A stretch of 28,211 nt of DNA from positions 1-28,211 of IMG/VR virus record IMGVR_UViG_3300047328_000028; one strand, given 5' to 3'. This document shows positions 12,482 through 26,538 of this stretch, one piece after another; position 1 is the stretch's first letter; the number at the start of each line of letters is the position of its first letter. This DNA is from a virus. Under the pieces are notes generated by a model. That model made no database searches. It worked only from the letters and a program-made list of their open reading frames with translations, and was not told the origin of the DNA. Position numbers and translations under genes: made by a program.

Positions 12482-13654
12482 TCATTTCCCCAGCCTTTTG
12501 ATCAAAGCCGCCACGCCGCCCGCCAGGGCCTGGCGCTTCTGATATTTTTTCAACGTCCGCAGCCGCGCCGCATGAAACGTTTTTACAAACAGCTCATCGC
12601 CATCAACATTCTTCAAAATCACCGAGGCAACGATATGTCCCGCCAGGCCGACCAGCCTGATGTGGCGCTCACCCTCATCATAGATCGCGAACGGGTGTTT
12701 TATCAGCTGGTCAAGACCCTCGTAATTCTTAACCGTTAATTCCGGGTGCCGCTTGTTCTGTTTCACCAGCGTGTCTTTTGACAGCAGCGCAATCTTGGTT
12801 TTGGCCCCCAGCAGCTTCATGGCCTGGTCGTTCAACGTCCCCACCTGCACCGCGCCGCTGGGTGCGCTCATGAATTTCTGCAACGCCGCCGGCGGCACGG
12901 CCGTCGCACCTGGCTGCGCCAGCACCGGCGGCGCCGCGCCGATCGGCTTGACCCTCGGTGCGCTCACCGGCGCTTTCGCCCAGGCCCGCCCTGGGTTGCC
13001 AACAAAGCCGGGGTCAACGCCGGCCGGGTATTTCGTCACCACACCGGTCGTGCGGTCCTTGTATTCCTGCCATTGCAGCTGCGGGCTGTCGCAAAGCCGT
13101 TTGCCTTGCCGCGCGATCAGACGCTCGTTGGTGGAAATCACAATGCAATGGCAGCCCCAGCCGTTCGGCGGGTAGCAGGTGGCCCAGAACGGGTCATCGG
13201 CCCGCAGCACCATGCCGCTCCACGCCACATGCTGCAGCCTGGGGTTCGGGCAGTTCACATGCACATATTCCCAGTAAGGGTAGGCCGCCAGCACATCCGG
13301 GTCGGTCATCTGCGCGTAGCGGCCGGCGGCAAAAGCGGTGGCCAGGTTGGTGTTGTATATAATCTTCGCGCGCCATTCGGCTTTGCCGGTGTGGCTCCAG
13401 CCGTGTTTTTTCACGATCGCGTCGAAGTCCTTGCGGAATTCGCCAAAGCTGGTGCCCTGCGAGATCGCCTTGTCCACCGCACCCCGGAAATCTTTGATCA
13501 GCGCCTCTTTCGTCGCACCCGCCACCGCGAAGCTGCGCGTATGCGCGTCATCCATCACCGTGGTCCAGTGCGCGGAGGGCATTTCGGTTTTCTGCCGGAA
13601 GTAATCCACCGCCTCGGTGAACGGCAGATTCACGGCACTGGCGGTATCGGCCAT
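12482..13654 (-). CDS. F: Mu gpF-like minor head protein with C-terminal PBECR2-like nuclease domain
   Basis: This 390-residue protein has two parts. Residues 10-180 are the Mu F head morphogenesis domain: AVDYFRQKTEMPSAHWTTV, a helical FRKDFDAIVKKHGW, RAKIIYNTNLATAFAAGRYA, and the cysteine-rich end ATCYPPNGWGCHC. After a Pro/Ala linker (225-262), residues 270-378 hold ALLSKDTLVKQNKRHPEL, then VASVILKNVDGDELFVKTFH, which fits the PBECR2 family, a Barnase/EndoU/colicin-type nuclease fold found at the C-terminus of many phage F proteins. Such domains are thought to be delivered with or processed in the virion. The ATG has a GAGGA site six nt upstream. The head role is secure; nuclease activity is unproven. 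Confidence 0.9.
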   Translation of the reverse strand: MADTASAVNLPFTEAVDYFRQKTEMPSAHWTTVMDDAHTRSFAVAGATKEALIKDFRGAVDKAISQGTSFGEFRKDFDAIVKKHGWSHTGKAEWRAKIIYNTNLATAFAAGRYAQMTDPDVLAAYPYWEYVHVNCPNPRLQHVAWSGMVLRADDPFWATCYPPNGWGCHCIVISTNERLIARQGKRLCDSPQLQWQEYKDRTTGVVTKYPAGVDPGFVGNPGRAWAKAPVSAPRVKPIGAAPPVLAQPGATAVPPAALQKFMSAPSGAVQVGTLNDQAMKLLGAKTKIALLSKDTLVKQNKRHPELTVKNYEGLDQLIKHPFAIYDEGERHIRLVGLAGHIVASVILKNVDGDELFVKTFHAARLRTLKKYQKRQALAGGVAALIKRLGK

Positions 13655-13657
13655 GAT

Positions 13658-13849
13658 TTATCCTCGCGCCAGCTCAACGGCCTTTTTGCAGGCTATGAGC
13701 TGCGCCAAATACCGTTCAGCGTAAAACCGCTCCTCGATCTTTTGACTCCAATCCAGAGTGGACAACCGGCTCTGCACTTTTAGAATTTCCTCTCCGAGCA
13801 ATCGCGGCAAGCAGCCGGAATCCCAGTCAGTGACTCTAATCGCAATCAT
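13658..13849 (-). CDS. small hypothetical protein between portal and F
   Basis: A 63-residue protein begins at ATG 13849, with GCAGG nearby upstream; a GTG at 13864 would add five residues. The sequence IAIRVTDWDSGCLPRLLGEE is followed by a basic helix, KVQSRLSTLDWSQKIEERFY and AERYLAQLIACKKAVELARG. No family is recognised. The tight fit between portal stop (13868) and F start (13654) supports it as a coding gene. The C-terminal half is predicted helical. Its local base composition is a little more AT-rich than the neighbouring genes. Confidence 0.6.
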   Translation of the reverse strand: MIAIRVTDWDSGCLPRLLGEEILKVQSRLSTLDWSQKIEERFYAERYLAQLIACKKAVELARG

Positions 13850-13867
13850 CGCTGGCCTGCCCACAGC

Positions 13868-15535
13868 TTACGCCCTCGCGTGCGGGGCAATCTCATCCAG
13901 CAACGCCGCTTGGCCGGCGATGTTCGCCAGCGCCATGCCCTGCATCAGCGCGGTCTGGAAGGCGTGCGTGTCCAGCTCCAGCTTCGCCAGGCGCTCAGCC
14001 AGGTCCGGCAAGTCCTTCGCCTCCTCAAAACATTGCTTAACCTGGCCGGTCATTCCCGCCAGCGCGCCTTGCGCATCGCGCGCCAGCCGGTCTTCCAGCG
14101 CCTCCAGCACGTCGCCGGCTTGCGGCGTGTGGCGGGACAGAAGCTTGCCGAACATCCCCACCATCAACACCCGCTCATCGGAATTCGGGTTGATCTCCGG
14201 GTGCGGGTTGGCCTTCGGGTTCAAATCGGCTTTCACCAGCGGGTTGCCGTTGGCGTCTTTCGCAACCGGCGGTGCTGCGGCCGGCGGGCCGATCACATCG
14301 TCGCCCGCCTCCGGCGGTTCCAGCTGCAGCCGGTCATAAATATCTGCGGTTTTTACCTTGAACCCAAGTGGCCCCAAATCCGCCACGGCGGCAATCACAT
14401 CGCTCAGCGGCACTTTTTCCTCGGTGCCGATTTTTATCGTCGGGTATTTATCCTGCGGCCCGAAGGTGAACGCGATCATCGGCTCGATGATCTGCCGGTT
14501 AATCCCCCCGGCCAGCAACCCGCCATCGAATTTTTCAACATCCTGCTCGGCCGCGCGGTGTTCCTGGCCCACCGCATGGCCGCCTTTAATCGCGTCCGTG
14601 CCGGCGGTGCCGCCCAGCACCAGTTTGGAAACCTCGTAATTCAGCCAGTTGGCGCGGCCCGTAAACAGCTCGGCGCCGTTCACCGCCCCCTTCGCCTCAA
14701 CGAACTCCATCTCCATCGATTTTGGAATAATCGCGGCCAGGTCTCCGGCAATGCCGCGCACCGCCCGCCACAAGGTGCGCTTGTCATTCTCCGATGCTTC
14801 CGGCCCATAACGCCCCAGCCGCACCGGCAGCCCGTAGCCTTGCACAAACAGCGCCCAGTCTTTCAACGTGAATGTGCCATACAGCCACAGCCACGCCACC
14901 ATGCGGGTTAAGCCGCTGCGCACCGGGTTGCCGGACTTGGAGGCATGCACGTGCAGCAGGAATTTATGCGGCGCCAGGTCGGCAAAGCCGCCGGTCACCC
15001 GCTCACGAATGGTTTGCCCGTCTTTCCAGCTCACTTCAAAATCGCGCTGGTTGCGCCACAGAATTTCCGCCGGCCGCACGCTGCCTGGCTGCACATCCCA
15101 CATGATTTCATTAACCGAATAGCCCTTGCCGATGCCGTCGGTAATGTCGAACATCGCGCGGTCCAGCACGCCGCTATCCAGCCAGTCCCGCACAAAATCC
15201 GCGTGTTTTTCGCCATCCGGCAATTTCGCCGCCTTCACGGTCACCGGCAGCAGGCTCACCTGGCGGCGGCGCTTGCTCAGCACGGATGAGTAGTGAACAT
15301 ACAGCTCCTCAATTTCCTCGGCGATGATGAACCAGTCCCGCGTCTGGCCCATATCGGCGGCGCGGATAATCGCCCCCAGCCGGCCAGGGTCCACGCCGAA
15401 CGCCAGATTGCCGACAAAGGGTTGCCGCACGGACATTGATGACGGCGCCGCGATAGGCGATTTCAGCCGCGCGATTTCCCACGCGGCAATCGGCGCGCCG
15501 AATTGGTCCACCAGGCCGCTCACATCATCCGCCAT
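13868..15535 (-). CDS. portal protein, DUF935 family (Mu gp29-like)
   Basis: From ATG 15535 this is a 555-residue protein; an upstream in-frame extension to 15595 exists but lies inside the preceding gene. Family features include PIAAPSSMSVRQPFV, LGAIIRAADMGQTRDWFIIA, EEIEELYVHYSSVLSKRRRQ (about 72-91), GIGKGYSVNEIMWDVQPGS, and LFVQGYGLPVRLGRYGPEAS. The E-L-x-x-x-Y-x-x-x-L-x-x-R-R stretch and the W-x-x-F-x-x-x-Y-G-x-P-x-R-x-G-type segment are characteristic of DUF935 portals. The protein forms the dodecameric DNA gate at one head vertex and docks the terminase. The C-terminal 130 residues are an Ala/Asn/Pro linker followed by helices. The 11-nt overlap with the upstream gene suggests coupling. 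Confidence 0.92.
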   Translation of the reverse strand: MADDVSGLVDQFGAPIAAWEIARLKSPIAAPSSMSVRQPFVGNLAFGVDPGRLGAIIRAADMGQTRDWFIIAEEIEELYVHYSSVLSKRRRQVSLLPVTVKAAKLPDGEKHADFVRDWLDSGVLDRAMFDITDGIGKGYSVNEIMWDVQPGSVRPAEILWRNQRDFEVSWKDGQTIRERVTGGFADLAPHKFLLHVHASKSGNPVRSGLTRMVAWLWLYGTFTLKDWALFVQGYGLPVRLGRYGPEASENDKRTLWRAVRGIAGDLAAIIPKSMEMEFVEAKGAVNGAELFTGRANWLNYEVSKLVLGGTAGTDAIKGGHAVGQEHRAAEQDVEKFDGGLLAGGINRQIIEPMIAFTFGPQDKYPTIKIGTEEKVPLSDVIAAVADLGPLGFKVKTADIYDRLQLEPPEAGDDVIGPPAAAPPVAKDANGNPLVKADLNPKANPHPEINPNSDERVLMVGMFGKLLSRHTPQAGDVLEALEDRLARDAQGALAGMTGQVKQCFEEAKDLPDLAERLAKLELDTHAFQTALMQGMALANIAGQAALLDEIAPHARA

Positions 15536-15746
15536 TGTCTTTGCTTTCGGTTTGCCGCACGTCGCACGCGGCCAGGCGTTTATCGATCTCGGCATTCACC
15601 GCCGCCAGGCGCTCAACCGCGGCATCCCGGGCATCGCTATAGGCGGCCATGCCGTCCACATACTCGGCCGCCTGGCGCTGCTGCGTCGCCGCCCCCAGCT
15701 CCAGCGCCAGCTCGGCAAAGCTCATTTCGGCGAACGGCTTGTTCAT
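15525..15746 (-). CDS. small helical hypothetical protein
   Basis: A 73-residue protein that starts at ATG 15746 (TGATG overlap with the previous gene) and ends inside the portal start. It is almost entirely helical by composition: AELALELGAATQQRQAAEYV, then DAAVERLAAVNAEIDKRLAA. Heptad-like leucine/alanine spacing suggests a short coiled coil. No family recognised. Its location between terminase and portal, together with two other small genes, marks an accessory cluster absent from Mu. It ends in a polar DVRQTESKDNGG tail. Confidence 0.65.
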   Translation of the reverse strand: MNKPFAEMSFAELALELGAATQQRQAAEYVDGMAAYSDARDAAVERLAAVNAEIDKRLAACDVRQTESKDNGG

Positions 15747-15922: not shown

Positions 15923-16215
15923 AGTCCCATCTCCTGCACAATCGGGTCATGTGGCGGCAGCTTGGGCGCGATCGTCGCCGGCATCAGCCGCCGGTGGGTC
16001 CACGCCATCGCCTTCAACCGCTTCAAATCATCGGCGCTGGGCAGGCCGCGCATCACATTAATTTGTGTGTCCAGCCGCGCCACCAGGCGCCATTCGTTCG
16101 GGGTTAAATGCGCCCTTAAGCCGCGCAATTTATCCACCGTCAGGCCCAGCAATTTCAGCTCGCACAACCGCATCCGCGCCGCGTCGTCATCGGTCTCGGC
16201 CACGTCATAGGCCAT
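15919..16215 (-). CDS. hypothetical protein after large terminase
   Basis: A 98-residue protein begins at ATG 16215, inside the last codons of the terminase gene; longer upstream readings of this frame are antisense-like and Arg-rich, so I reject them. It contains RMRLCELKLLGLTVDKLRGL, LTPNEWRLVARLDTQINVMR and LPSADDLKRLKAMAWTHRRL, then a conserved-looking proline end, PKLPPHDPIVQEMGL. The middle looks like a helical bundle. I do not recognise the family. The 11-nt overlap with the terminase gene suggests translation coupled to it. Confidence 0.65.
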   Translation of the reverse strand: MAYDVAETDDDAARMRLCELKLLGLTVDKLRGLRAHLTPNEWRLVARLDTQINVMRGLPSADDLKRLKAMAWTHRRLMPATIAPKLPPHDPIVQEMGL

Positions 16216-17080
16216 GATAAACCCTCCGTCCCATCGTGGGGAAAATGCCGCCGCGCTCGCTGTCCCGCTGCGCCTCGTCGGCCTCTTCGGCTGTCTGCGC
16301 CCAGCCGGCATAACCCATGTTCGCCGCCGCCAGCGCGGCCGGCGCGCCCTCATAGCCATACATCTCAGGCTCGGCCCGGGATGCCGCCACCGCCAAGGCA
16401 CTCGCCACCGCGCTATCGCCGTGGCGTTTTTTATCTCTCTCGCCGGTGCGCTCCTCGGGTATCCGTCCCACGCCGCGGATCAATTTCACCAGCCGGTGGT
16501 CATCCAGAATGTCGCGGTCGCGCGGGATCACGATCATTCCGTCTTCAAAATCGGCTTTCCAGCGCGGCATATTGTCGCGGTACCACGGCTCGTTCAGCAT
16601 CACCGCTTCCACCCGCTCGCCATATTTTTGCAAGGCGGCCTCGGCCAAAAACCCGCCATTGCCGGTCGCGTCAAACTTGCCGGCGCGGAACAAGGGCAGC
16701 CGGTCGATAATATAAAAAACAATCTGTTTTTGCGCGTCATACGGCACGTTGCGCATTTCCAGCACAAACGGCGTGCGCTTGATCAGGCTGCGCTCCAGCG
16801 CCAGCGGCCAGAACACGGACAAATCCCGCTTGCGGCCAAAATCATGCCCGAACACGTGCGGAGTTTTTATATCGAGGCCAGCCAGCACGCCCAGCAATTC
16901 ACGCTCGCAAAAATCCGCGATTTCGGCTTTACGCAAATGCTCGGCCATCATCAAAAAGCTGCCCGGCAAATCCAGCCGCACCACCGGTATGCCATCCGCC
17001 ATTCGCGCCTCGATGACAGCGGCGGACAGGTAAGCGCCGGAGCCGGCCGAGGGCACCACGAACAATTCCTGGTCAAGCAC
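16205..17080 (-). pseudogene. large terminase, C-terminal (nuclease) part, out of frame with N-terminal part
   Basis: Open frame from about 17080 to TGA at 16205. It resumes the family at DQELFVVPSAGSGAYLSAAV and carries the nuclease half of a Mu gp28-type terminase: VFGHDFGRKRDLSVFWPLAL with the expected metal-binding Asp of HDFGR, RTPFVLEMRNVPYDAQKQI, KFDATGNGGFLAEAALQKYG (second acidic site), and ERDKKRHGDSAVASALAVAA (third Asp). All nuclease landmarks are intact. It could only be made separately from a GTG at 17080 without an evident ribosome site. In the intact family this follows the motor domain in a single chain of about 500-560 residues. Whether any active enzyme is produced is doubtful. 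Confidence 0.8.
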
Positions 17081-17727
17081 ACGCGCTGGTACAGCCCATC
17101 CGCCAGCGCTTCATCGAATGTGGTGCGGCCGATATAATAGGGCAGGCGGCCGCCACGAATATCCTGCACCAGCTGGTTGAACGGGTTGGCGTCGCCGTCA
17201 TGGGTGGAAATAATCACCACCTTGCCGCCCCAAATCAGCAGCGCGAAGGCGGCCTTCATCACGCCCGGCAGATCATCATGGAACGCCGCTTCGTCGATAA
17301 TCACCAGGCCCTGCATGCCGCGCAGAGATCGCGGCACGGATGGCAGCGCCAGCACCTTGAAGCCGGAGGCAAACGTCACCCGGAAGGCTTTGATGTCTTT
17401 CTCCGGGCGGTCCGGGTCGGTGAAAATTTCCTCTTCCACCTCGCGGGCCGCCATGCCCAAGGTCTTCGCCCATTCGCCCACGTAATCGATAAACTCGCGG
17501 GCCATCTCGAGGTTGTAGCCAATATATAAAACATCCTGCCCGCCGGCATCGCGCACTGATGATGCTGTCAGCACGGCTTGCGCGCCCATCGCCCAGGAAA
17601 ACCCGGTGCGGCGGGATTTTTCCCACACCACCACGGCGTTTTCATCAACAGCCGCCATCAGCTGTTGCTGGTACGGCAGATAAACCGCGGGCAGTTCCGC
17701 CAGGCGCTCCATCACATCACTTGCCAT
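16951..17727 (-). pseudogene. large terminase, N-terminal (ATPase) part, frameshifted
   Basis: Starts at ATG 17727 (overlapping the previous stop by 11 nt) or ATG 17712. The motor domain of a Mu gp28-like terminase is clear: LPYQQQLMAAVDENAVVVWE, the Walker A variant KSRRTGFSW, VLYIGYNLEMAREFI, FRVTFASGFKVLALPSVPRS, the LRGMQGLVIIDEAAFH Walker B with catalytic Glu, and WGGKVVIISTHDGDANPFNQ coupling motif. Family similarity ends at DGLYQRVCL (about 17074); after that the frame encodes unrelated residues to a stop at 16951. About 25 residues usually found here (a W-S-x-E-A-E-x-x-W-R-type helix) are missing between this half and the nuclease half. I read this as an internal deletion of 3n+1 nt. 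Confidence 0.8.
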
Positions 17728-17890
17728 GATAGGTCTCGGCGCAGTTCCAGCCGCGCAGCCAGGCACAGTAACTATCGCTGCCGACATGGTACGGGTTATC
17801 GGCGCGGCGCTTGCCTTCCACGAACGCCTCGAAGCCTTCATCCTCGGCCAGCGTGGTAAGCAGCGCTTTCGGCAGCGGGCGCGCGCTCAT
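17717..17890 (-). CDS. ribosome modulation factor-like small protein
   Basis: A 57-residue protein from ATG 17890 to TGA 17717-17719. It overlaps the GcrA-like stop (ATGA) and the terminase start. Residues 22-51 read AFVEGKRRADNPYHVGSDSY, then CAWLRGWNCAE, matching the Rmf pattern G-(x)n-N/C-P-Y-(x)n-W-x-x-G-W. E. coli Rmf (55 aa) blocks mRNA-binding parts of the 30S subunit and drives 70S dimerisation in slow growth. Small Rmf-like proteins are also found in alphaproteobacterial phages, with no proven role. Here it could affect translation during infection, but inference only. It fills otherwise empty DNA between two genes with overlaps at both ends, so it is likely real. Confidence 0.7.
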   Translation of the reverse strand: MSARPLPKALLTTLAEDEGFEAFVEGKRRADNPYHVGSDSYCAWLRGWNCAETYHGK

Positions 17891-18372
17891 CATGCCGCCT
17901 GCCGCGCCAAATGCCCGTCAACGGGTTTGGCGCCATAGCTCGCATACGCCTCGGCGCAATGCGCCCGGCAATAGGGTTTGCCGGGCTCGCTCGGCTCGTC
18001 GCAATAGCGGAATGTCGGCGTGCGCGGCGTGCCGATCGGAAAGCAGCACGGCTCGGATTTCAACTTTCGCGTTGGCGCCGGCGGCGGCTCCGGCGCCAGC
18101 CTCTCATTCGGCTCGGCCTTTACCTGCGCCAAATTTTTCAGCGTCGTTTCGCGCGCCGCGATCGTTGTTGGCCTGGCATATCGCACGCCATCGCCGCGGC
18201 GTATCGGTGAGGGCCGGGAAGGCAGCCCAAGCCGGTGCGCCCGCCCAACGAGGGAATTTTTGCTCAAGCCCATCGCCTCGCCGATCGCCGCCGTGGGCAG
18301 CCCTTCGGCCCATAATTTGCGCAGTTCGTCATCGCGCTCCGGCCAGCATGAAGTGTGTCTGCCCTTACCCAT
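17890..18372 (-). CDS. GcrA-family cell-cycle regulator homologue
   Basis: This 160-residue protein has both parts of the GcrA family. N-terminus: CWPERDDELRKLWAEGLPTA (9-28), AIGEAMGLSKNSLVGRAHRL and GLPSRPSPI, the homeodomain-like helix-turn-helix. C-terminus: CCFPIGTPRTPTFRYCDEPS and EPGKPYCRAHCAEAY (109-143), the part that in Caulobacter GcrA binds sigma-70. The variable linker is Pro/Lys/Glu rich. Host GcrA activates genes at methylated GANTC sites with sigma-70, so this copy could redirect host or phage transcription. It is placed in the packaging region between the 81-aa gene and the Rmf-like gene, overlapping both. The family is essentially alphaproteobacterial, giving the best clue to the host. 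Target genes are unknown. Confidence 0.9.
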   Translation of the reverse strand: MGKGRHTSCWPERDDELRKLWAEGLPTAAIGEAMGLSKNSLVGRAHRLGLPSRPSPIRRGDGVRYARPTTIAARETTLKNLAQVKAEPNERLAPEPPPAPTRKLKSEPCCFPIGTPRTPTFRYCDEPSEPGKPYCRAHCAEAYASYGAKPVDGHLARQAA

Positions 18373-18610
18373 GTCCGTGCTCCGGCCCGGCCAGCAGGGC
18401 GTTATAGCGAATGGTGCGGTCCATCGCCTCCAGCATCGGCTCCAAATAGCCGGTCTGCGTGCAGCTGCTGGCCAGCTGCCCCAGCTGCGCGCAGGCGCCC
18501 AGCATCAAAGCCCGCAGATCCACGCCCTCGGCCTGGCGCTGCAAAAAGAACTGCCGCAGCATTTCGCTTTCATGAATCGAGGCGTCATCGGGAAGAAACC
18601 GCTCACTCAT
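18365..18610 (-). CDS. hypothetical protein between small terminase and GcrA-like gene
   Basis: An 81-residue protein from ATG 18610, overlapping the small terminase end (ATGA) and ending inside the GcrA-like start. It is mostly helical: DASIHESEMLRQFFLQRQAE, VDLRALMLGACAQLGQLASS, then YLEPMLEAMDRTIRYNALLA. It ends with a His/Gly-rich PEHGHG tail. No family recognised. Being locked between two overlapping neighbours supports translation. A helper for terminase assembly is conceivable from position only. Confidence 0.65.
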   Translation of the reverse strand: MSERFLPDDASIHESEMLRQFFLQRQAEGVDLRALMLGACAQLGQLASSCTQTGYLEPMLEAMDRTIRYNALLAGPEHGHG

Positions 18611-19176
18611 GATTTCACTCCAAAAATTTTCGCCTTGATCATATCCACCGTCGCGGCGGAAAACCCGTTTTCCTTGGCCACACTTTCCACCGCCACCACC
18701 GCCTCGGCCCGCGCCTTGTCGGCCGCGCGCTTTTCCGCCGCCACCAAAAATTCCACATTGCTCTTGGATGCGCGGCCCAGATGGTCCAGCGCCTTCGCCA
18801 GCATCATAATCCCTTCCGGGTCACCCTCGGTTGCCAGCTTGCCGTATTGCGCCACCGCTTCGCCGTCCGCGCTGCGCATGAACAAATCATTCACCGCGCC
18901 ATGCAGCAGCTCGATGTTCAGCCTGGCCGCCTTGCTTTCCGGCGCATCACCCAGCTCGCGCACCAGGGCCTCCGCCACATCGCGCGAACGCCGCATTTTC
19001 TCGGCGATTTTATCAAAACCCTTGACATGCCGCCCGAGCGCGGAACGGCTCACCTGCGTGCGCATATCGGCTAAATGCGCGAGAATCTCATCAATCGTAT
19101 GGCCGCTTTGCCGCAGCTGGCCTATCGCGGCACGGATTTCCGCCGGCAGTTTATCGATGGATGATGGCCTCGCCAT
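18607..19176 (-). CDS. terminase small subunit, DUF3486 (Mu gp27-like)
   Basis: This 189-residue protein has the N-terminal DNA-binding part of DUF3486: RPSSIDKLPAEIRAAIGQLR, then QSGHTIDEILAHLADMRTQV and SRSALGRHVKGFDKIAEKMR (about 43-62). A helical region with LNIELLHGAVNDLFM and GIMMLAKALDHLGRASKSNV follows, matching the family's oligomerisation half. Length agrees with Mu gp27 (about 190). It recognises phage ends and loads the large subunit for headful packaging. It is preceded by the gp26-like gene. Overlaps at both ends fit a compact operon. Confidence 0.93.
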   Translation of the reverse strand: MARPSSIDKLPAEIRAAIGQLRQSGHTIDEILAHLADMRTQVSRSALGRHVKGFDKIAEKMRRSRDVAEALVRELGDAPESKAARLNIELLHGAVNDLFMRSADGEAVAQYGKLATEGDPEGIMMLAKALDHLGRASKSNVEFLVAAEKRAADKARAEAVVAVESVAKENGFSAATVDMIKAKIFGVKS

Positions 19177-19475
19177 CAGGCAAGCCCGATGCGCGCAACG
19201 CCGGGGTGGTCACGCCCTTGCGCAACCTCCTGGCCGGCCGCCTTTAGATGCGCAATCCAAAGCTCGCCCACATGCGCCGGAATTTTCTCGGCGCGGATCA
19301 GCCCATGCTCATCGAGGAACGCCAAATCCGCGCGGATCAGCTCACGGGTCGGCAAATGGCCAAACTGCTCGCACACCTGTTTCAGCACGGTCTCGTTGGC
19401 GGAATATCCGCTCTCATCCAGCGCCTGAAGAATAATGCGCCGGCGGTTGGCGGCCTGAATCTCAACCATGCTCAT
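19176..19475 (-). CDS. Mu gp26-like winged-helix phage protein (VpaChn25_0724 type)
   Basis: This 99-residue protein reads MVEIQAANRRRIILQALDES, then ANETVLKQVCEQFGHLPTRE and LIRADLAFLDEHGLIRAEKI. The order helix, LKQVCEQFGH, D-L-x-x-L-x-E-x-G-L and a final V-A-x-x-G-R-x-H-P-G-V-x-R motif is that of the ArsR-like winged-helix protein found in many Mu-like phages next to small terminase. Exact function is not known; a DNA-binding role in packaging or regulation is plausible. It ends overlapping the small terminase start. The final GRDHPGVARIGLA is family-typical. Confidence 0.85.
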   Translation of the reverse strand: MSMVEIQAANRRRIILQALDESGYSANETVLKQVCEQFGHLPTRELIRADLAFLDEHGLIRAEKIPAHVGELWIAHLKAAGQEVAQGRDHPGVARIGLA

Positions 19476-19837
19476 GTGCGTTTGCCACCTTCGATTTCGT
19501 TCTGCACCAGCATCTGCAGCATGTTGTTCGCGGCCGTTAATTGCTGGTGAATGCCAACCATTTCGCCCAGCATCCTGGAGCCTTGCTGCTCGACCGCGCC
19601 GATACGGTTGAACATTTCATCAGCCTTGGTGGCAGTGAGCAGCGTTGAGATTTTTTGGTTAACGCCATCAACACTGATCTCAACTTGGTCGATGCGCCCG
19701 CCCATCGCATTATGCTCAGCCCGCGTCACGAAGCTTGCCTGCATTCTGTAGATGAACATGCCACCAAGCCCGTTGGCGATGACAAGAATAACGCCGAGAC
19801 ATTCCGCAATGGCTTGCCAATCACCTGAATTCAGCAT
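19472..19837 (-). CDS. DUF2730-like membrane/coiled-coil protein (Mu gp25-like)
   Basis: A 121-residue protein with an N-terminal membrane segment (about 10-30, IAECLGVILVIANGLGGMFI) and a long helix with heptads, RIDQVEISVDGVNQKISTLL, ADEMFNRIGAVEQQGSRMLG and MVGIHQQLTAANNMLQMLVQ. That architecture, and the position just upstream of the gp26/gp27-like genes, is typical of DUF2730. The family's function is unknown; the inner-membrane anchor with coiled coil has led to suggestions of a role in lysis or packaging. It follows the Rz1-like gene with a 1-nt gap. Confidence 0.75.
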   Translation of the reverse strand: MLNSGDWQAIAECLGVILVIANGLGGMFIYRMQASFVTRAEHNAMGGRIDQVEISVDGVNQKISTLLTATKADEMFNRIGAVEQQGSRMLGEMVGIHQQLTAANNMLQMLVQNEIEGGKRT

Positions 19838-19838
19838 C

Positions 19839-20129
19839 CTATTTCCCAGCCGGCGCAGTCTCGATCACGGCGATCGAGGAGACGGTATCCCGGCAATCCT
19901 CCCCGGCCGCCTCGAGGCGTATGATAAAATCACCCACATCCTTCTGAGTTTTTATCGTCCCCAAAATCGGCGCCGGCGCGCATGTCAGCAAAGCGGATGG
20001 AACGGTCACGCGCTCCTCGATATAGCGCGTCTGCACCGGCGGCGCCGGCGCCGCGCACCCGGCCAGCAGCACCGCCGCCAGCACGCCCACGCTCAGCAGC
20101 TGCAAGGCTATCAGCGCGCTACGCCGCAC
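19839..20129 (-). CDS. Rz1-like outer-membrane spanin lipoprotein
   Basis: From GTG 20129, with a GGAGG six nt upstream, this is a 96-residue protein. An N-terminal signal (RRSALIALQLLSVGVLAAVL) ends in a lipobox, LLAGC, cysteine at residue 25, followed by proline-rich APAPPVQTRYIEERVTV. This is the architecture of the outer spanin subunit Rz1, which is lipidated in the outer membrane and binds Rz to fuse the two membranes in the last step of lysis. The mature part, about 70 residues, is longer than lambda Rz1 and has a second Cys pair (TCAPAP and DCRDT). An ATG 45 nt upstream is possible, but lacks the ribosome site. It does not overlap the Rz-like gene. Confidence 0.75.
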   Translation of the reverse strand: MRRSALIALQLLSVGVLAAVLLAGCAAPAPPVQTRYIEERVTVPSALLTCAPAPILGTIKTQKDVGDFIIRLEAAGEDCRDTVSSIAVIETAPAGK

Positions 20130-20457
20130 GGGGCACCTCCGGCCAGCGCCAGCCGGAATTCGCGCAATGCACACCGTTAGCGAACAGTTCGTCCGGCAAC
20201 CGGCAAGCCGAGGAGCGCGCGGCGATCTGGCCGTCGCCGAAGAACACCGTCAGGTTCACGCAATCATCACCCCACACCTGCGTGATTATCGCGGGGTGCC
20301 AGCGAGAGCCATTAACGCCCTGAGCTTTTGCGCCATGTTCGAGCAGTAATTTCGATCTCTCCTCATAAGTCAGATCGATTTTACCAAAACGACTGCCGTC
20401 AATAGCCTCAAAATCGCCTTCATAATAATGCACAATCCGTCCGATCGTCGCTTTCAT
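20119..20457 (-). CDS. hypothetical protein in lysis cassette, between spanin genes
   Basis: A 112-residue protein starting at ATG 20457, overlapping the Rz-like stop (ATGA). It begins TIGRIVHYYEGDFEAIDGSR, then RWHPAIITQVWGDDCVNLTV, FFGDGQIAARSSACRL, and ends GWRWPEVPRAA. The pattern G-R-I-V-H-Y-...-W-H-P-A-I-I-T-x-V-...-V-N-L-x-V-F-x-D-G-...-W-x-W-P is shared by small phage proteins of unknown role in many tailed phages. No signal peptide or membrane segment is seen, so it is likely cytoplasmic. Its place splits the spanin pair, which is unusual. Confidence 0.7.
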   Translation of the reverse strand: MKATIGRIVHYYEGDFEAIDGSRFGKIDLTYEERSKLLLEHGAKAQGVNGSRWHPAIITQVWGDDCVNLTVFFGDGQIAARSSACRLPDELFANGVHCANSGWRWPEVPRAA

Positions 20458-20852
20458 TTGCTCACTCCCTCGCTCGCCGCATAATCGTTGAGAACTTTCC
20501 GCAAATCCGGCGCCACCGGCCCGTCATCGCCCGGTGTGGCGGCCAGCGCGTCATTCGCGGCGGCGGCAGCCATTGCGGCATTGCTTGCCGCCTGGGCGCG
20601 GCCCTGGTGCGCGGCCAACGCGCTATTATTCACCGCATCTTGCGCCAGCATATCCGCGGCGGCTTTTGCGTTCATTTCGCTCGTGGCAAGGGCATCGGCC
20701 TTTTGCTGGCCGGCCAGCGCCAGCTGCGCCTTCAACACCGCCGGCTCTTCAAACCGAAAGCCGGCATAAAACCCAGCCGCGAACACCAGCAAAGCCACCG
20801 CCAGGGTGGCGCCAAATTTCGCCAAATATGGCGCCAGGAATGCGGGAATCAC
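20454..20852 (-). CDS. Rz-like inner-membrane spanin
   Basis: A 132-residue protein with an N-terminal membrane anchor (LAKFGATLAVALLVFAAGFY, about 10-29), followed by a periplasmic Ala/Gln-rich helix, LKAQLALAGQQKADALATSE, and ending PDLRKVLNDYAASEGVSK. Type II topology with coiled-coil periplasmic part is the architecture of inner spanins. Start is a GTG at 20852 overlapping the previous stop. The helix is exceptionally alanine-rich (AAMAAAAANDALAA). It pairs functionally with the Rz1-like lipoprotein downstream. Assignment rests on architecture and location. Confidence 0.7.
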   Translation of the reverse strand: MIPAFLAPYLAKFGATLAVALLVFAAGFYAGFRFEEPAVLKAQLALAGQQKADALATSEMNAKAAADMLAQDAVNNSALAAHQGRAQAASNAAMAAAAANDALAATPGDDGPVAPDLRKVLNDYAASEGVSK

Positions 20853-21064
20853 GGTCCGTCCTTTCTGGCCCTAAAGCCCATGCCCGCCAGCGTGGCACCC
20901 ATCACCGCACCAGAGCCGATGCCGAAGCCTTGCGCATCGAACGGCGTGTTGGTCAGCTGCGCATGCACGGTTAAAAAACAAAACGTCAGCACAAGAATGA
21001 TCGAGAGCACCGACTGCTCATCCAACTTGCCGTCAGGGCTCTCGATCAGCTCAAGCAGACGCAT
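20849..21064 (-). CDS. small membrane protein, holin candidate
   Basis: A 71-residue protein with one clear membrane segment (SVLSIILVLTFCFLTVHAQL, about 18-37) and a second weak glycine/alanine-rich stretch (GIGSGAVMGATLAGMGF, 48-64), with a basic end RARKDGP. Two short hydrophobic segments with a charged C-terminus fit a class II holin. It lies directly upstream of the Rz-like gene. The lysozyme has no export signal, so a holin must exist; this gene, the 71-aa GAT-repeat protein and the 196-aa membrane protein are the candidates. I rank this one first because of size and position. Confidence 0.55.
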   Translation of the reverse strand: MRLLELIESPDGKLDEQSVLSIILVLTFCFLTVHAQLTNTPFDAQGFGIGSGAVMGATLAGMGFRARKDGP

Positions 21065-21084
21065 CGCGTTATTGTCTTTCAGGC

Positions 21085-21300
21085 TTAGAGAATGCCGAGA
21101 CCGAAATGTAAGCCGAGGAAAATCGCCGCCGTCGCGGCGGCGCTGCCAATCGCAATCGCTTTCGGGTGCGTCTCGAAAAATGTCAGCTCCTTGGCTTCAA
21201 GGGCGGATGCATTGGCGCCGATCGTGGCGCCGATGCTGGCGGGTTTGGTTGCGGCACCAGTGGCGCCCGTAGCTCCGGTAGCTCCTGTCGAACTGCTCAT
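21085..21300 (-). CDS. small membrane protein with Gly-Ala-Thr repeats
   Basis: A 71-residue protein from ATG 21300, with GGAGAG four nt upstream and an ATGA overlap with the previous gene. The N-terminus contains three Gly-Ala-Thr triplets, SSSTGATGATGATGAATKPA, encoded by 9-nt near-repeats around 21254-21285. A charged stretch (ASALEAKELTFFETHPK) and one C-terminal membrane segment (AIAIGSAAATAAIFLGLHFG) follow. It is a possible holin or antiholin in the lysis cassette. I do not recognise a family; the Gly-X-Y character resembles short collagen-like linkers. A 20-nt gap separates it from the next gene. Confidence 0.6.
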   Translation of the reverse strand: MSSSTGATGATGATGAATKPASIGATIGANASALEAKELTFFETHPKAIAIGSAAATAAIFLGLHFGLGIL

Positions 21301-21887
21301 AAAACTCTCCATGATGCGGCGCTTGGGTTGATCGTCATCGCGATCACTACGAACGCGGCGCCGAGAAGCGCGCCCGTAAACACTTCGCCCCATTCCTGCC
21401 CTTCCGCGAATTTCGGAACCGCCGGCCAGGGCAATCTTGCCAGCAAATAACAGGGGGCAAATCCAACACCGCACGCCAGCAGCCAGGCGCCGATACGCCA
21501 GTCAAACCAGCCATAAAGCAACGCCAGCGGCGCCATGCAGCACAAGCCGCTCTCAGCCATGCCGATAAAATCATGCGCGGTCGTTCCGGCCTTAAAGCCC
21601 AGCAGTTGCGGCAGCCAGCGCTTCCATGAAGGTTCAGGTCTGCCGGAAACCGGCAACCCCATCCCCTGAAACGGCCCCCAGCCGCCGATGCAAATGCCGA
21701 TGAACAGCACCGGCACGCCAGGAGCAAACCACATCACCGGCAACAGCCCAGCCAACATTGCCCGCAAAGCCCGCGCAGCGTCCGAGCCAAAATTCAATCC
21801 GGTGATGCTGGTAAACGCCCCACCGCCCAGCCGCCACACAAAAGCCCCGGCGAGTGCTGCCAGAAAGATGATGAAACAATCCATCAC
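21297..21887 (-). CDS. polytopic membrane protein in lysis cassette
   Basis: This 196-residue protein has four or five hydrophobic segments: FIIFLAALAGAFVWRLGGGA (4-23), LLPVMWFAPGVPVLFIGICI, LCCMAPLALLYGWF, WLLACGVGFAPCYLLARL and GEVFTGALLGAAFVVIAMTI. Between them is a conserved-looking GWGPFQGMGLP and a W-K-R-W-L-P-Q-L-L-G stretch. It begins inside the lysozyme stop codon area (ATGA) and ends overlapping the next start. Family unknown. Location suggests a lysis or membrane role (for example a holin or superinfection-exclusion protein), without proof. The segment count is by eye. Confidence 0.65.
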   Translation of the reverse strand: MMDCFIIFLAALAGAFVWRLGGGAFTSITGLNFGSDAARALRAMLAGLLPVMWFAPGVPVLFIGICIGGWGPFQGMGLPVSGRPEPSWKRWLPQLLGFKAGTTAHDFIGMAESGLCCMAPLALLYGWFDWRIGAWLLACGVGFAPCYLLARLPWPAVPKFAEGQEWGEVFTGALLGAAFVVIAMTINPSAASWRVL

Positions 21888-22420
21888 GCCACCAGCCCGG
21901 TCATATCAAGCTGGCCGGTAAACACTTGCGCTTCCAGCTTGCGGCGCTTCACCAGCCCTGGCAGAGGCTTGCCGCTGCCATACACCCAGTATGGAAACTG
22001 CAACGCCATGCCGGCGAAATTTCCCGCCAGCAGCATTTTGTACATGGTGGAATGGGTGCCGGATTTGAGCCAGACGAAGCCATCTTTCACGCCCGGCTTG
22101 CCGGGCCCCACATTGTTCATAAAGCTGGTCAGCGCGCCCAGCTGGTCACCATTCAGCAGCATCGGCGCATAGGCCATCACCAGATCGCACGATCCGGTTA
22201 AATCGGCCTGCAGCATCGCATCCGCCTGCGCCCGGCTGATCACATCGCCGGGCTTCACCGGCAGCCCGTTCAACCGGGTGGAACCGCGACCGATCGTCCA
22301 GGGCTCGCCGCCTGTTCCGGGGTCCGGGTAGGCTTCCAGCTCGCAGCCTTCGCAGGCATTGGCAATGCCCGTCGCCTGGGCAATCGCGCGCGCGATAATG
22401 GTTTGGGGGTATTGCAACAT
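21884..22420 (-). CDS. lysozyme/endolysin, GH24 (T4 lysozyme-type)
   Basis: From ATG 22420 this is a 178-residue endolysin. The catalytic region reads ACEGCELEAYPDPGTGGEPW then TIGRGSTRLNG: Glu24, then Asp33 (8 residues on) and Thr42, the E-D-T triad of GH24 with three extra residues in the loop before the Thr. It later has ISRAQADAMLQADLTGSCDL and LNGDQLGALTSFMNNVGPGK, both typical of this family. It cleaves the MurNAc-GlcNAc bond in the cell wall. There is no signal peptide or SAR anchor, so release needs a holin. A GTG at 22456 would add 12 residues, but it abuts the palindrome; spacing conservation with the protease gene favours the ATG. No ribosome site precedes it. Confidence 0.92.
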   Translation of the reverse strand: MLQYPQTIIARAIAQATGIANACEGCELEAYPDPGTGGEPWTIGRGSTRLNGLPVKPGDVISRAQADAMLQADLTGSCDLVMAYAPMLLNGDQLGALTSFMNNVGPGKPGVKDGFVWLKSGTHSTMYKMLLAGNFAGMALQFPYWVYGSGKPLPGLVKRRKLEAQVFTGQLDMTGLVA

Positions 22421-22456
22421 GGCAGGATCATTGAACGGTCCCGGCACGTGCGGCAC

Positions 22457-22472
22457 GCTAAACTAGTTGAGC
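22457..22472. promoter_or_regulatory. late-activator operator upstream of lysozyme (Plys-like)
   Basis: GCTAAACTAGTTGAGC matches the palindrome at 10757-10772 with a single mismatch (T to G at position 12). It lies just after the Mor/C-like gene ends (22478) and 36 nt before lysozyme ATG 22420. The next four bases of the minus strand (GTGC) are also identical at both copies. In Mu, the late promoter Plys sits between C and lys. Confidence 0.7.
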
Positions 22473-22477
22473 GTTGA

Positions 22478-22822
22478 TCATTCGAACGCGAACGATCTTT
22501 GTTCTGCAACTTTGCCCTTCTCGCCGCGATATTTGTAATACGCGGCTTCGGTGCAAGCGGCCAGCTTGGCAATCTCGACAGGTCTTAGACCACGCCGCTC
22601 GTAAATTTCAAAACGCTGCCGCCGCGCCATCGGCACGGCGATAAAGCTGCCGCCGAAATACTGGAATAGCAAGGCAAAGCCGGAATCGCCCAGCAGGTCG
22701 CGCAAAATATGTTTTTCCGGAAACTCCTTCGGCACGTCCACGCGCCTGCCGCCATAGGCTTCCACCAGTTTCAAGGTGGCATCCTCACCCAGCAGCTCGA
22801 GCAGGGCGGAAAATTCACTCAC
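22478..22822 (-). CDS. Mor/C-family transcription activator
   Basis: This 114-residue protein fits the Mor family: TLKLVEAYGGRRVDVPK at about 16-32 (the dimerisation strand with the family's Y-G-G-x-x-x-x-V-P motif), HILRDLLGDSGFALLFQYFG, then a helix-turn-helix at 77-100, RGLRPVEIAKLAACTEAAYY. In Mu, Mor turns on the middle promoter and C turns on the late promoters lys, I, P and mom. Only one such gene is visible here, so it may serve both roles or be the C equivalent. It starts at GTG 22822 (GTGA overlap with GemA) and is followed by the palindrome that I propose as its operator. Confidence 0.88.
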   Translation of the reverse strand: MSEFSALLELLGEDATLKLVEAYGGRRVDVPKEFPEKHILRDLLGDSGFALLFQYFGGSFIAVPMARRQRFEIYERRGLRPVEIAKLAACTEAAYYKYRGEKGKVAEQRSFAFE

Positions 22823-23328
22823 CGTTTCTTGTCGCCTGCGGGCTTGTACTCAACCGGCGGCAGCCCGGCCGGCCGGCGCCGCATTTTCACAACGCCCTTG
22901 GTTTTATGCTCGGCCGCGCGTTTGCGCTGCTCGCGCGCAAGCCAGGCTTTCAACCCCTCGATCACCAAATTGGCATCCTCCGGGTTCAAAAACTCCGGCG
23001 CGTCCTGGCCGGTTTGCCGCCGCACGAAGCTGCGCAAAGCGGTGTGCGAATGGTCGGTTAAATACGGCTTAAGGTCGCCCCAAATACCGTAAATCATGCG
23101 CACATAGGCTTTATCGGAGCGTTTATGTTTCGCCGCCTCGGCGGTGAAGCCCAGCCGTTTGAACTCGGCAATCACCGCCTCCAGCTGGGCGGGCGTGCAG
23201 GTGGCGGCGCTGTCCTGCCCCGCCACCCGCATCAGCATCGCCCGGTAGCTGTCATCCTCCAGGGCAAGCTGTTTTTTGGCGATATGGATTTTCGCCAGCA
23301 TCGCCCGGCGCTCCGGCTGCACGCTCAC
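22819..23328 (-). CDS. gemA: GemA-like protein (DUF1018, Mu gp16)
   Basis: This 169-residue protein starts with RRAMLAKIHIAKKQLALEDD, YRAMLMRVAGQDSAATCTPA and QLEAVIAEFKRLGFTAEAAK, then MIYGIWGDLKPYL and FVRRQTGQDAPEFLNPEDAN, the landmarks of the Mu GemA/DUF1018 family. In Mu, GemA modulates host gene expression and DNA supercoiling, and decatenates or relaxes replication coupling during infection. Here it sits just upstream of the activator gene, as gemA precedes mor in Mu. It has overlaps with both neighbours. The final 30 residues are basic and variable. Confidence 0.92.
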   Translation of the reverse strand: MSVQPERRAMLAKIHIAKKQLALEDDSYRAMLMRVAGQDSAATCTPAQLEAVIAEFKRLGFTAEAAKHKRSDKAYVRMIYGIWGDLKPYLTDHSHTALRSFVRRQTGQDAPEFLNPEDANLVIEGLKAWLAREQRKRAAEHKTKGVVKMRRRPAGLPPVEYKPAGDKKR

Positions 23329-23819
23329 GCTTTTATGCCTTGCCCGCGCAGCACATCGGCATGGCTGGGTGCGCCCAGTTTGAAGGGCGCGCCAGGCATT
23401 TGTGCCACCGCTGGCTGCTGCGCTGTTTTACCCAAGGCCCACCCTGGCAGATCGATAACGATGCTTTGATCAGCGATCATGTACGAAACCGCACGCAATG
23501 GTTGCACAGCCGGCGATTGATTCTGCAACCCGGGGATGCGCACAATTAATCTTTGGGCTCTGCCCGCCGGTTTTTTTAAAAAGAAAGCGCCATTGCGGGA
23601 AATTCGCAATTTGCCCGCATCCGTTCCGGCCCCCAGCCCCACCGAGACCGTTTGCCCCTTGGCAACCCAGGGTAACCCCAGCGCCGCCGGCGAAAAATAC
23701 AGGGTAATCCAACGCTGGAATCGCCCGCCCGCTTTATTGCAGGAAATGCCGACCACAATGGATTTTGCCGCACTGCCCTGGTCGGCTCGTGCCGCCGGCA
23801 GAAGCTCGGTAAAGCTCAT
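23325..23819 (-). CDS. hypothetical early protein
   Basis: From ATG 23819 (ATGA overlap with the previous gene), this is a 164-residue protein. It contains KSIVVGISCNKAGGRFQRWI, TLYFSPAALGLPWVAKGQTV, SVGLGAGTDAGKLRISRNGA and FFLKKPAGRAQRLIVRIPGL: a beta-rich N-terminal two-thirds, then a flexible Pro/Ala end, AQQPAVAQMPGAPFKLGAPS. No family recognised. Its end overlaps the GemA start. Early-block position suggests a host takeover or anti-defence role, which remains speculation. Confidence 0.65.
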   Translation of the reverse strand: MSFTELLPAARADQGSAAKSIVVGISCNKAGGRFQRWITLYFSPAALGLPWVAKGQTVSVGLGAGTDAGKLRISRNGAFFLKKPAGRAQRLIVRIPGLQNQSPAVQPLRAVSYMIADQSIVIDLPGWALGKTAQQPAVAQMPGAPFKLGAPSHADVLRGQGIKA

Positions 23820-24028
23820 GGCGTTACCCCCCCCCATCCCGCGCGCGCAAACTGCATGCCAACAGCCGCAACGGCCGCCACCAGCGCCCAGGCCGCGGTT
23901 GCCAGCACCACAACCACCACCAGCCACGGCAGCCGCCGCGTGGGCGTACTCAGCCGCCGCTCAGCCGGGTTGAACACGCCATATTGCCGCGCCTGGGCCA
24001 CCCGCCAGCCATCTCGCCCCGGCGCCAT
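23816..24028 (-). CDS. small single-pass membrane protein
   Basis: A 70-residue protein starting at ATG 24028, which shares its A with the Gam stop (TGATG). A cytoplasmic basic N-terminus (PGRDGWRVAQARQYGVFNPA, TPTRRL) precedes one long membrane segment, PWLVVVVVLATAAWALVAAV (33-52). It ends GMQFARAGWGGVTP. No family recognised. The positive-inside charge predicts N-in orientation. It is coupled to genes on both sides. Confidence 0.6.
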   Translation of the reverse strand: MAPGRDGWRVAQARQYGVFNPAERRLSTPTRRLPWLVVVVVLATAAWALVAAVAAVGMQFARAGWGGVTP

Positions 24029-24567
24029 CACACCACCTCTTCGAGAGAGGTTTCGAACGGCACGATCACGAATTCCTCGGACTGCGTGATCGTGATGCCT
24101 GGAATGTTCGCAACCGCCGCCGGCTCGGCCAGCATCGCCTCCTTGTTCGGTTCTTCCTTCACCCGGATGAACCGGCCCAGCCCGCGCACATACAAAGCCG
24201 CCAGCACCGTCTCAATGCTACGAATTTTCACCGATGGCGGTGTCACCCGCCAGCGCACCTCGCCGGAGGCGAAGGATGCGGTTTTCACCTTGCCGCCCTC
24301 GGTCAGCGCGTCGCGGTTCGCCTCGCACCAAATCTGCACGCCTTCGCGCATCTCGGCGATCACCCGGTTATGCGGCTCCGCTTCCAGCTCATAGCGTTCT
24401 TTGATCTTCGCTATCGCATCGTTCATGTCCGCCTCGATGCGCGTCTTGTACCGCTGGCTGGTGCCGATCACTGCGATCGCCTGTATCACCTCTTCGCGGT
24501 TTTGCGGCACGAACCCGGCGCGCGCCTGGCCCTTTATCAACTCGCGTTTTTTTGGTTTCGTCGTCAT
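24028..24567 (-). CDS. gam: Gam-like host-nuclease inhibitor (Mu Gam)
   Basis: From ATG 24567, with AGGAGA six nt upstream, this is a 179-residue Mu Gam homologue. Family sequence is strong: FVPQNREEVIQAIAVIGTSQ, IEADMNDAIAKIKERYELEA, GVQIWCEANRDALTEGGKVK, then EVRWRVTPPSVKIRSIETVL, ALYVRGLGRFIRVKEEPNKE and a final ITQSEEFVIVPFE. Gam binds double-stranded DNA ends as a Ku-like dimer, protecting phage DNA from RecBCD-type nucleases. Length and order of motifs fit the Mu protein (174 aa). The first 60 codons also encode the end of an overlapping frame. Confidence 0.95.
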   Translation of the reverse strand: MTTKPKKRELIKGQARAGFVPQNREEVIQAIAVIGTSQRYKTRIEADMNDAIAKIKERYELEAEPHNRVIAEMREGVQIWCEANRDALTEGGKVKTASFASGEVRWRVTPPSVKIRSIETVLAALYVRGLGRFIRVKEEPNKEAMLAEPAAVANIPGITITQSEEFVIVPFETSLEEVV

Positions 24568-24754
24568 CAACTATCTCCTGTGAAATATTGCCTTCAAGAA
24601 CTTTCGAATTTGCTATTTTTACGTGGTAGACCCACTGCATTTCAGAAATCTCCCGGCAGCGCGGGCAGGCATCGATGTCATCGATCGTCACAGCGCCTGG
24701 GCGGGTGCGGGTATTCAAACAAACCTCGCAATCGCCCAGGGTAATCAGATGCAT
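24389..24754 (-). CDS. putative CxxC/CxxC zinc-ribbon protein overlapping gam
   Basis: A 121-codon frame starts at ATG 24754, overlapping the stop of the previous gene. The N-terminal 60 residues look real: MHLITLGDCEVCLNTRTRPG, then DDIDACPRCREISEMQWVYH, giving two C-x-x-C pairs that could bind one zinc. The last 60 residues lie inside gam in another frame, are Arg/Asp/Gly-rich, and look like the by-product of the gam sequence. A run of seven A (24547-24553, T on the plus strand) lies at the start of this overlap, and a +1 slip there would join the zinc-ribbon part to Gam. Without that, the 181-nt overlap is unusual. The N-terminal part fills a region otherwise without a gene. Confidence 0.55.
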   Translation of the reverse strand: MHLITLGDCEVCLNTRTRPGAVTIDDIDACPRCREISEMQWVYHVKIANSKVLEGNISQEIVDDDETKKTRVDKGPGARRVRAAKPRRGDTGDRSDRHQPAVQDAHRGGHERCDSEDQRTL

Positions 24755-26511: not shown

Positions 26512-26538
26512 TTTTGCTTCTCCTTGTTGATGGACGGC

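Follow-up and report, generated by a model that had tools for sequence, protein, structure and literature searches.

GcrA is usually described from Alphaproteobacteria. The host protein is described as a cofactor of sigma-70 that binds m6A-GANTC DNA and activates methylated promoters (PMC7403470, PMC3667746). Phage-borne copies are encoded by phiCbK-like phages, in print since 2012 (Gill et al. 2012, PMC3556154), by Agrobacterium phage Atu_ph08, where gp5 is GcrA (PMC6630229), by phiLM21-like Sinorhizobium prophages (PMC12429752) and by a phage linked to the genome of a coral-associated member of the Rhizobiales (PMC11309003). The authors of the phiCbK and Atu_ph08 studies proposed that host replication genes are up-regulated (PMC3556154, PMC6630229).

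Here we analysed a window of 28,211 nucleotides (the whole stretch of DNA studied, positions 1 to 28,211 of IMG/VR virus record IMGVR_UViG_3300047328_000028), in which a GcrA-family gene lies in the packaging cluster of a Mu-like phage. Its product belongs to the same Pfam family as Caulobacter GcrA (7ye1, 5yiu, 5yix) and shares the two-domain layout and the low-confidence linker. The near-invariant W, R, C and H positions of chromosomal GcrA are kept, whereas the window copy is phage-borne and lacks the host tail (YVRVRDRREDAA-like). The phiCbK gp222 and its relatives are likewise GcrA-family proteins with both domains from phages of an alphaproteobacterium, but the phiCbK genome is over 200 kb and its gcrA adjoins a gene annotated as DNA polymerase I, with no packaging genes among the 10 surrounding features; the phiCbK-type proteins are 31-34% identical to the window copy. 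Atu_ph08 and the phiLM21-like prophages also carry a phage-borne GcrA but belong to other phage groups, and the available descriptions, on which this comparison is based, mention neither an RMF-like neighbour nor a packaging slot. A literature search, with most subscription papers outside its coverage, showed no report of GcrA in a Mu-like phage among the papers listed. Phage-encoded GcrA is already known, and it is the location in the packaging operon of a Mu-like phage, with an RMF-like neighbour, that is unusual.

A GcrA-family gene between the terminase subunits

An earlier note on this DNA had assigned the gene to the GcrA family with both the N-terminal and the C-terminal domain, and this assignment was borne out by Pfam, PDB sequence matches, AlphaFold and VIA-align. 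Pfam GcrA (PF07750) matched the 160-aa protein with 78.8 bits (E 7.8e-22, cut-off 26.9), and the alignment of residues 12-147 to profile positions 6-149 of 155 covered both ends of the model. With phmmer against PDB sequences (E limit 10), there were only 3 matches and every one was Caulobacter GcrA, namely the full-length 7ye1 (E 4.8e-12), the DNA-binding domain 5yiu (1.7e-5) and the sigma-interacting domain 5yix (3.9e-4). The AlphaFold model, built from 31 aligned sequences, had a mean pLDDT of 77.2 and a pTM of 0.39, with confident stretches at residues ~11-50 and ~101-140 (block means 81-96), a low-confidence linker and N-terminal helices at 10-22, 27-34 and 38-48. VIA-align superposed the N-terminal stretch on 5yiu over 47 residues (rmsd 1.6) with Z 6.5, the best unrelated row reaching 5.7, and the C-terminal stretch on 5yix over 39 residues (rmsd 1.9) with Z 4.5, a score that many unrelated rows equalled. 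Foldseek ranked GcrA chains 1-3, yet gave 0 matches at E <= 0.001. Because the domains are so small, the fold match alone is not decisive and the sequence matches carry the case. By sequence and model together, the window protein has an N-terminal helix-turn-helix of the GcrA type (5yiu) and a C-terminal sigma-70-interacting domain (5yix); the 5yix match indicates that the C-terminal domain is present, and the contact with sigma-70 itself is predicted.

Family matches of this kind need to be read with their controls. Over 14 named genomes, Pfam GcrA matched in 2, Caulobacter, as expected, and the archaeon Sulfolobus acidocaldarius, so a PF07750 match alone is no proof of an alphaproteobacterial cell-cycle GcrA. 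The NCBIfam cell-cycle GcrA equivalog NF050816 gave the window protein 58.3 bits, below its 280-bit cut-off; since a chromosomal Acetobacteraceae GcrA, with most of the protein, itself reached just 85.8 bits, this cut-off cannot tell phage from host here. When the phages collection was searched with a host GcrA, 70 records matched, of which 40 were Lactobacillus/Lacticaseibacillus phages, 26 Caulobacter phages, 2 Synechococcus phages and 2 others, and the Lactobacillus/Lacticaseibacillus phages aligned, among the matches listed, through the N-terminal part only. The DNA-binding half is therefore no mark of GcrA, and the window protein has both halves. A GcrA-like helix-turn-helix without the sigma domain seems to occur in these Firmicutes phages, and two Synechococcus phage records, L173 (PP438432) and OM868079, are annotated as having GcrA-like regulators, although their true host may differ.

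Conservation was scored over 53 columns (32 in the DNA-binding domain and 21 in the sigma domain) that are shared by at least 90% of 37 host GcrAs, 4 of the 41 host rows (L121, L123, L124 and L129) having been left out. The window protein keeps 25/32 of the DNA-binding-domain columns and 15/21 of the sigma-domain columns. Among the 13 columns that differ, A40S, V41L and K44R affect the third helix, and W111F affects the sigma domain. Four near-invariant positions of the C-terminal domain, C109, C124, C135 and H138, are kept.

The surrounding genes (Table 1) confirmed the proposed Mu-like packaging cluster, with gp27, large terminase, Mu portal and Mu F, together with MuA, MuB, GemA and Gam; MuA and MuB along with the Mu-type gp27, portal and F identify the phage as Mu-like. 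The gene is indeed situated between the terminase subunits, with the small terminase upstream and the large one downstream.

Table 1 Features of the window, and MT-A70 methylase genes of related loci
Feature	Position	Strand	Evidence or remark
Mu F	12482-13654	-	Pfam
Mu-type portal	13868-15595	-	Pfam Portal_Mu 260 bits
Large terminase, C-terminal part, different frame	16205-17080	-	phrog_5909; profile match
Large terminase, N-terminal part	16951-17841	-	phrog_2 large terminase; profile match
RMF-like (Rmf/CrpP family) protein, 58 aa	17717-17893	-	Pfam RMF 29.6 bits, cut-off 27.9
GcrA-family protein	17890-18372	-	160 aa, ATG start, frame intact; DNA-binding domain ~ residues 9-50, sigma-interacting domain ~ residues 105-145
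81-aa protein	18365-18610	-	Overlaps both neighbours; relatives in L002, L003, L064
Small terminase, Mu gp27 family	18607-19176	-	Pfam Phage_Mu_Gp27 133.3 bits; phrog_426
VpaChn25_0724 family phage protein	19176-19475	-	NCBIfam NF050184 76.9 bits, cut-off 65
Lysozyme	21884-22456	-	
Mor-like late transcriptional activator	22478-22822	-	phrog_836, E 1.2e-13
GemA	22819-23328	-	
Gam	24028-24570	-	
MuB	25516-26511	-	Pfam Phage-MuB_C 72 bits
MuA transposase	26539-28170	-	Pfam DDE_2 209 bits
MT-A70 adenine methylase	L003:8576-9157		Terminase slot; Pfam 92.9 bits
MT-A70 adenine methylase	L004:4657-5247		Terminase slot
MT-A70 adenine methylase	L055:2780-3370		Upstream of small terminase
MT-A70 adenine methylase	L064:4300-4902		Upstream of small terminase

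The genes from the small to the large terminase are tightly packed. The 81-aa gene shares 4 bases with the small terminase and 8 with gcrA, the gcrA stop overlaps the RMF-like gene by 4, and the RMF-like gene also overlaps the likely start of the large terminase at 17727. These overlaps, downstream of a Mor-like activator, make late co-expression from one message likely; they leave zero intergenic space for a separate gcrA promoter, although one may lie within a gene. A promoter scan of 16000-28211 found 2 against 3.9 expected, and a tRNA scan found 0. The Mor-like gene was assigned by its PHROG match, Pfam Mor giving it just 13.4 bits (cut-off 24.9), and in view of its presence we rejected GcrA as a substitute for the Mu late activator. 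The RMF-like neighbour reached neither NCBIfam cut-off (Rmf_CrpP 27.8, cut-off 28; RMF equivalog 20.9, cut-off 40), and the 81-aa protein had no match in Pfam or PHROG at E 0.1 or in NCBIfam at E 0.01. Among loci with a large-terminase match, a large terminase in two pieces, as in the two frames here, was seen elsewhere only in L059, and the split means that the genome may be decayed or contain a sequence error. The reading frame of MuA runs off the end of the contig, which therefore contains neither the MuA N-terminus nor the early promoter region.

Recurrence of gcrA in related phages and their hosts

Relatives were collected by scans with the small terminase and portal and then with an alignment of 18 small terminases, and L224 was added from the GcrA scan. 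We defined 80 distinct relatives using the C-terminal 150 residues of the small terminase, from the best 80 of 212 confirmed viral matches plus 10 genome matches. The large terminase was in view in 75/80 and at least 6 kb upstream of the small terminase in 53/80, so that absences cover only part of the relatives. On this base of the best 80 of 212, gcrA was located between the small and large terminases in 5/80 rows, which represent 4 distinct phages: the window, L002, the L007 group (L007, L008, L009, L033 and others) and L010. The gcrA of the L007 group is identical in the 5 loci compared, one of which is a prophage contig from the Acetobacteraceae MAG bog_937, and L022/L024 were tallied separately, the small terminase being cut, though their gcrA is identical to that of the group. 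In another 5/80 rows (L035, L055, L056, L114 and L224; best 80 of 212), gcrA was found upstream, in the early region, where it follows MuB or sits between MuB and Mor. It overlaps the MuB end by 4 bases in L056 and L035; in L185, where the small terminase is out of view, the overlap is 1 base or 4 according to which start codon is used. Since gcrA recurs in the slot of L002, the L007 group and L010 as well as in early regions, it has been either kept or repeatedly acquired.

The Mu-like phages L035, L055, L056, L114, L185 and L224 thus also have a GcrA-family gene, but one that is presumably expressed early. The proposal that GcrA appears late is therefore a sound inference for the window, from the gene overlaps and the Mor-like activator, and does not hold as a general rule. 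Unlike the window copy, those of L035, L056 and L114 have a strongly diverged C-terminal domain; of the 21 host-like sigma columns, L018/L056 and L035 keep 9, L114 8 and L185 12. Given how many host-like sigma columns these other Mu-like copies have lost, contact with sigma is not necessarily a general feature. Side by side with these counts, the MuB-adjacent copies with the strongly diverged C-terminal domain include L056:4569-5216 and L035:5006-5632, and the GcrA-family protein of L055:5094-5924 apparently has two tandem helix-turn-helix domains before the sigma domain (two Pfam GcrA stretches).

Other cargo was found at the same sites. Like gcrA, genes for MT-A70 adenine methylases occupy the slot in some relatives and the early region in others (Table 1). 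An RMF-like gene was in the slot of 13/80 rows, including 5/5 rows with a slot gcrA (best 80 of 212), and as every slot-gcrA phage falls within the RMF-bearing group, the rows show no independent association of gcrA with RMF. When Pfam was run on six of the ten or so slot RMF-like genes besides that of the window, 2 reached the RMF cut-off, 3 fell below it and L007 had no match (E 0.1); the L002 gene, scored separately, was likewise below the cut-off. The RMF, MT-A70 and p81 profiles were built from these same loci, which makes weak RMF matches in non-Mu phages uncertain. In two non-Mu contigs (L181:3662-4940 and L182:6317-7607), gcrA closely precedes the gene for a GapR-like protein whose C-terminal end resembles RMF, and the L181 protein scored below the NCBIfam cut-offs.

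Beyond these relatives, 96 stretches of viral contigs were confirmed when a GcrA alignment served as the query, and most of the best 80 of 96 GcrA loci, which were kept, had no Mu-like gene by profiles. The same kind of scan with the window GcrA alone gave 46 stretches with 0 confirmed. In the phages collection, the window GcrA matched 2 records at 27% identity and the L056 GcrA none, and a megablast of one flank of L118 found no match.

The closest phages are phages of Acetobacteraceae-like Alphaproteobacteria. All 10 genome matches are alphaproteobacterial or just Proteobacteria, with 5/10 assigned to Acetobacteraceae or Rhodopila. By small-terminase identity, the best two are the Proteobacteria MAG L032 (77%) and the Acetobacteraceae MAG L033 (74%), of which L033 has gcrA in the slot and L032 does not. 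These hosts belong to a lineage with GcrA and CcrM-like RAMA-domain proteins, in line with the earlier reading. A GcrA match was found in 9/10 prophage-bearing genomes and in 144/150 genomes of the same family, with additional copies in some host genomes. The RAMA domain, which we take to be a proxy for CcrM, matched in 9/10 prophage-bearing genomes, and of 14 control genomes Caulobacter alone matched.

Divergence of the phage copies and GANTC content

To place the phage copies, we built a quick tree of 117 GcrA rows, for which 13 of 130 distinct rows without the C-terminal Cys/His pattern had been left out, and a more careful 40-row tree, in which L164 was used without its N-terminal extension and the bootstrap had not settled. 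One cluster of 41 rows in the quick tree (SH-aLRT 87) holds 38 of the 41 host-labelled rows, joined by one second copy, by L187 from a non-Mu phage and by the host-type L185 gene; the host-labelled rows outside it are L123, L129 and L149. The host cluster of the 40-row tree (90/91) has the second copy L163 inside and L187 outside, with L129 as the host-labelled row outside, and this tree pairs L002 with L010 (92/79) and the MuB-adjacent L018 with L035 (100/98). The window GcrA lies outside the host chromosomal cluster in both trees and was not grouped in either the 117-row or the 40-row tree with chromosomal GcrA of the host lineage. The phylogenetic comparison that had been called for therefore separates the window copy from host GcrA with moderate support, but gives its own branch no supported place. 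As far as the alignments go, the GcrA copies of Mu-like phages appear with moderate support to fall outside the host chromosomal cluster, on long and poorly resolved branches. We rejected a recent capture of gcrA from the host, the Mu-phage copies being outside the host cluster. The contig of prophage L185 has both a host-type gcrA in its flank (1536-2081) and a phage gcrA after MuB (9474-9956); the former, wrongly labelled MuPhage in both trees, falls among the host genes and probably belongs to the chromosome flanking the prophage.

The four slot copies may share one history. In an AU test on 72 of the 117 rows, from which long-branch and distant rows had been removed, a single clade of the window, L002, L007 and L010 was not rejected (p 0.622), nor was the slot clade with L027 added (p 0.338), and the tree that held the four slot copies together was 11.65 log-units better than the free search. 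A one-residue gap of the window GcrA is common to L176 and the MuB-adjacent L185 copy, which is a weak hint. The window GcrA is 39-46% identical to host chromosomal copies and 36-46% to other slot copies, and its highest identity among the 117 rows is to L176, a non-Mu phage contig (49-52%). Between the window and L042, L178 and L046, gcrA is 45-46% identical, the RMF-like gene 43-46%, Mor 39-55%, the small terminase 74-76% and the portal 69-72%.

The earlier note had also proposed checking whether phage promoters carry GANTC sites, and the counts do not support this. The window contains 31 GANTC against 77.4 expected from dinucleotide shuffles (ratio 0.40, z -5.1), which gives GANTC the lowest observed/expected ratio among 16 palindromic pentamers. 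With synonymous codons shuffled in the 27 coding genes, 23 were observed against 41.1 (sd 5.0), and 0/200 shuffles were as low. Only 1/30 sites lay between genes against 2.0 expected (simple gene caller), so no excess was seen, and intergenic GANTC in 17 other loci, tested one by one, showed no enrichment (lowest P 0.12); the early promoter region is outside the contig. Being depleted and not enriched intergenically, the sites do not support phage promoters as GcrA targets. The next most depleted pentamer was GGNCC (87 against 187.6 expected, 0.46, z -7.6), which may point to restriction or methylation at GGNCC in the hosts.

Host DNA showed the same avoidance, with 177 GANTC against 404 expected in 37 host loci (observed/expected 0.44); a first count over 44 loci (0.43) had included prophage stretches and was repeated on the 37. 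Avoiding GANTC as host DNA does, the phage looks adapted to the host m6A system. Mean observed/expected was 0.34 in 4 loci with a slot gcrA, 0.22 in 4 with an early gcrA and 0.17 in 21 without gcrA in view, and an explanation of GANTC content by the presence of gcrA was ruled out, since close relatives without it (L043, L044 and L032) have 0.36-0.48. Near the start of the F gene there are four GANTC in 213 bases (13627-13832), three of them in 13655-13867; 122/3000 uniform placements were as tight, a mild signal noticed post hoc, and the portal-to-F gaps of L002 and L010 contain none.

Candidate roles of the phage GcrA

With slightly less than even confidence, we read the window gene as a real phage-adapted GcrA paralogue that is made late and acts on host transcription. 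The protein would be produced with the packaging proteins under the Mor-like activator. Its C-terminal domain would bind domain 2 of host sigma-70 and its N-terminal domain would bind DNA, probably m6A-GANTC, so redistributing host RNA polymerase among host promoters. By the simplest route, it would add to or displace host GcrA at methylated cell-cycle promoters, and the infected cell could be held replication-competent and non-dividing during head filling. The RMF-like partner, if ribosome-binding, would act on translation in the same late window. Judged from sequence, such a host takeover is plausible, and competition with host GcrA or an altered use of sigma-70, as had been envisaged for a phage copy, is possible.

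The domains of the protein bear directly on whether it could instead be a dominant-negative competitor, which would occupy the sigma-70 site or methylated DNA without activation and thereby switch off host GcrA-dependent genes, for example in replication control and division. The altered residues of the third helix and the W111F change agree with this, and the L018/L056 and L035 copies, which keep the DNA-binding domain while the C-terminus is diverged, look as expected of a DNA-site blocker; the window copy, however, retains the larger part of each domain and all four of the near-invariant Cys/His positions near its C-terminus, and we consider such a competitor unlikely. Equally improbable in our judgement is that gcrA is a passenger, an accessory moron that was caught in a changeable slot and is selected weakly or not at all in this phage. 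Close relatives do differ in what the slot contains (gcrA, MT-A70 methylase, RMF alone or none of these), gcrA is far less similar to its counterparts in L042, L178 and L046 than the small terminase and portal are, and the large terminase is split in the contig. Against these points, the frame of gcrA is intact with both domains kept, its divergence is like that of the RMF-like gene and within the Mor range, and its base composition is similar to that of the neighbour genes (GC3 0.739).

The GANTC counts bear on a role at the phage's own promoters, by which GcrA would make phage transcription depend on how far phage DNA has been methylated or replicated, responding, for instance, to accumulating hemimethylated or unmethylated copies. 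A Brevundimonas prophage-like operon is reported as GcrA-dependent in one study (PMC7987155), Mu-like replication would be expected to alter the methylation state of phage DNA, and the mild, post hoc cluster of four GANTC in 213 bases lies around the F gene start. The phage already has a Mor-like late activator, though, and GANTC is depleted without intergenic enrichment in the window or the 17 other loci, is absent from the portal-to-F gaps of L002 and L010, and is depleted also in 21 relatives without gcrA in view; the early promoter region lies outside the contig, and a published scan of alphaproteobacterial phages found predicted GcrA sites without positional bias (PMC9437464). We regard this role as decidedly unlikely. 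Returning to a late paralogue directed at the host, a broader and still more doubtful extension would make the terminase gap of Acetobacteraceae Mu-like phages a swap slot for late host-takeover effectors, where an m6A-transcription module (GcrA or MT-A70) and an RMF-like factor would together retune host transcription and translation during packing.

If the protein works, alphaproteobacterial phages would reach the methylation-read transcription programme of the host at two points, early and late. The phage copies also constitute a natural set of GcrA variants, some of them diverged in the sigma domain, with which the functions of the parts of GcrA could be dissected. The pairing with an RMF-like gene, in a slot common to MT-A70 methylases, offers a concrete and testable gene set.
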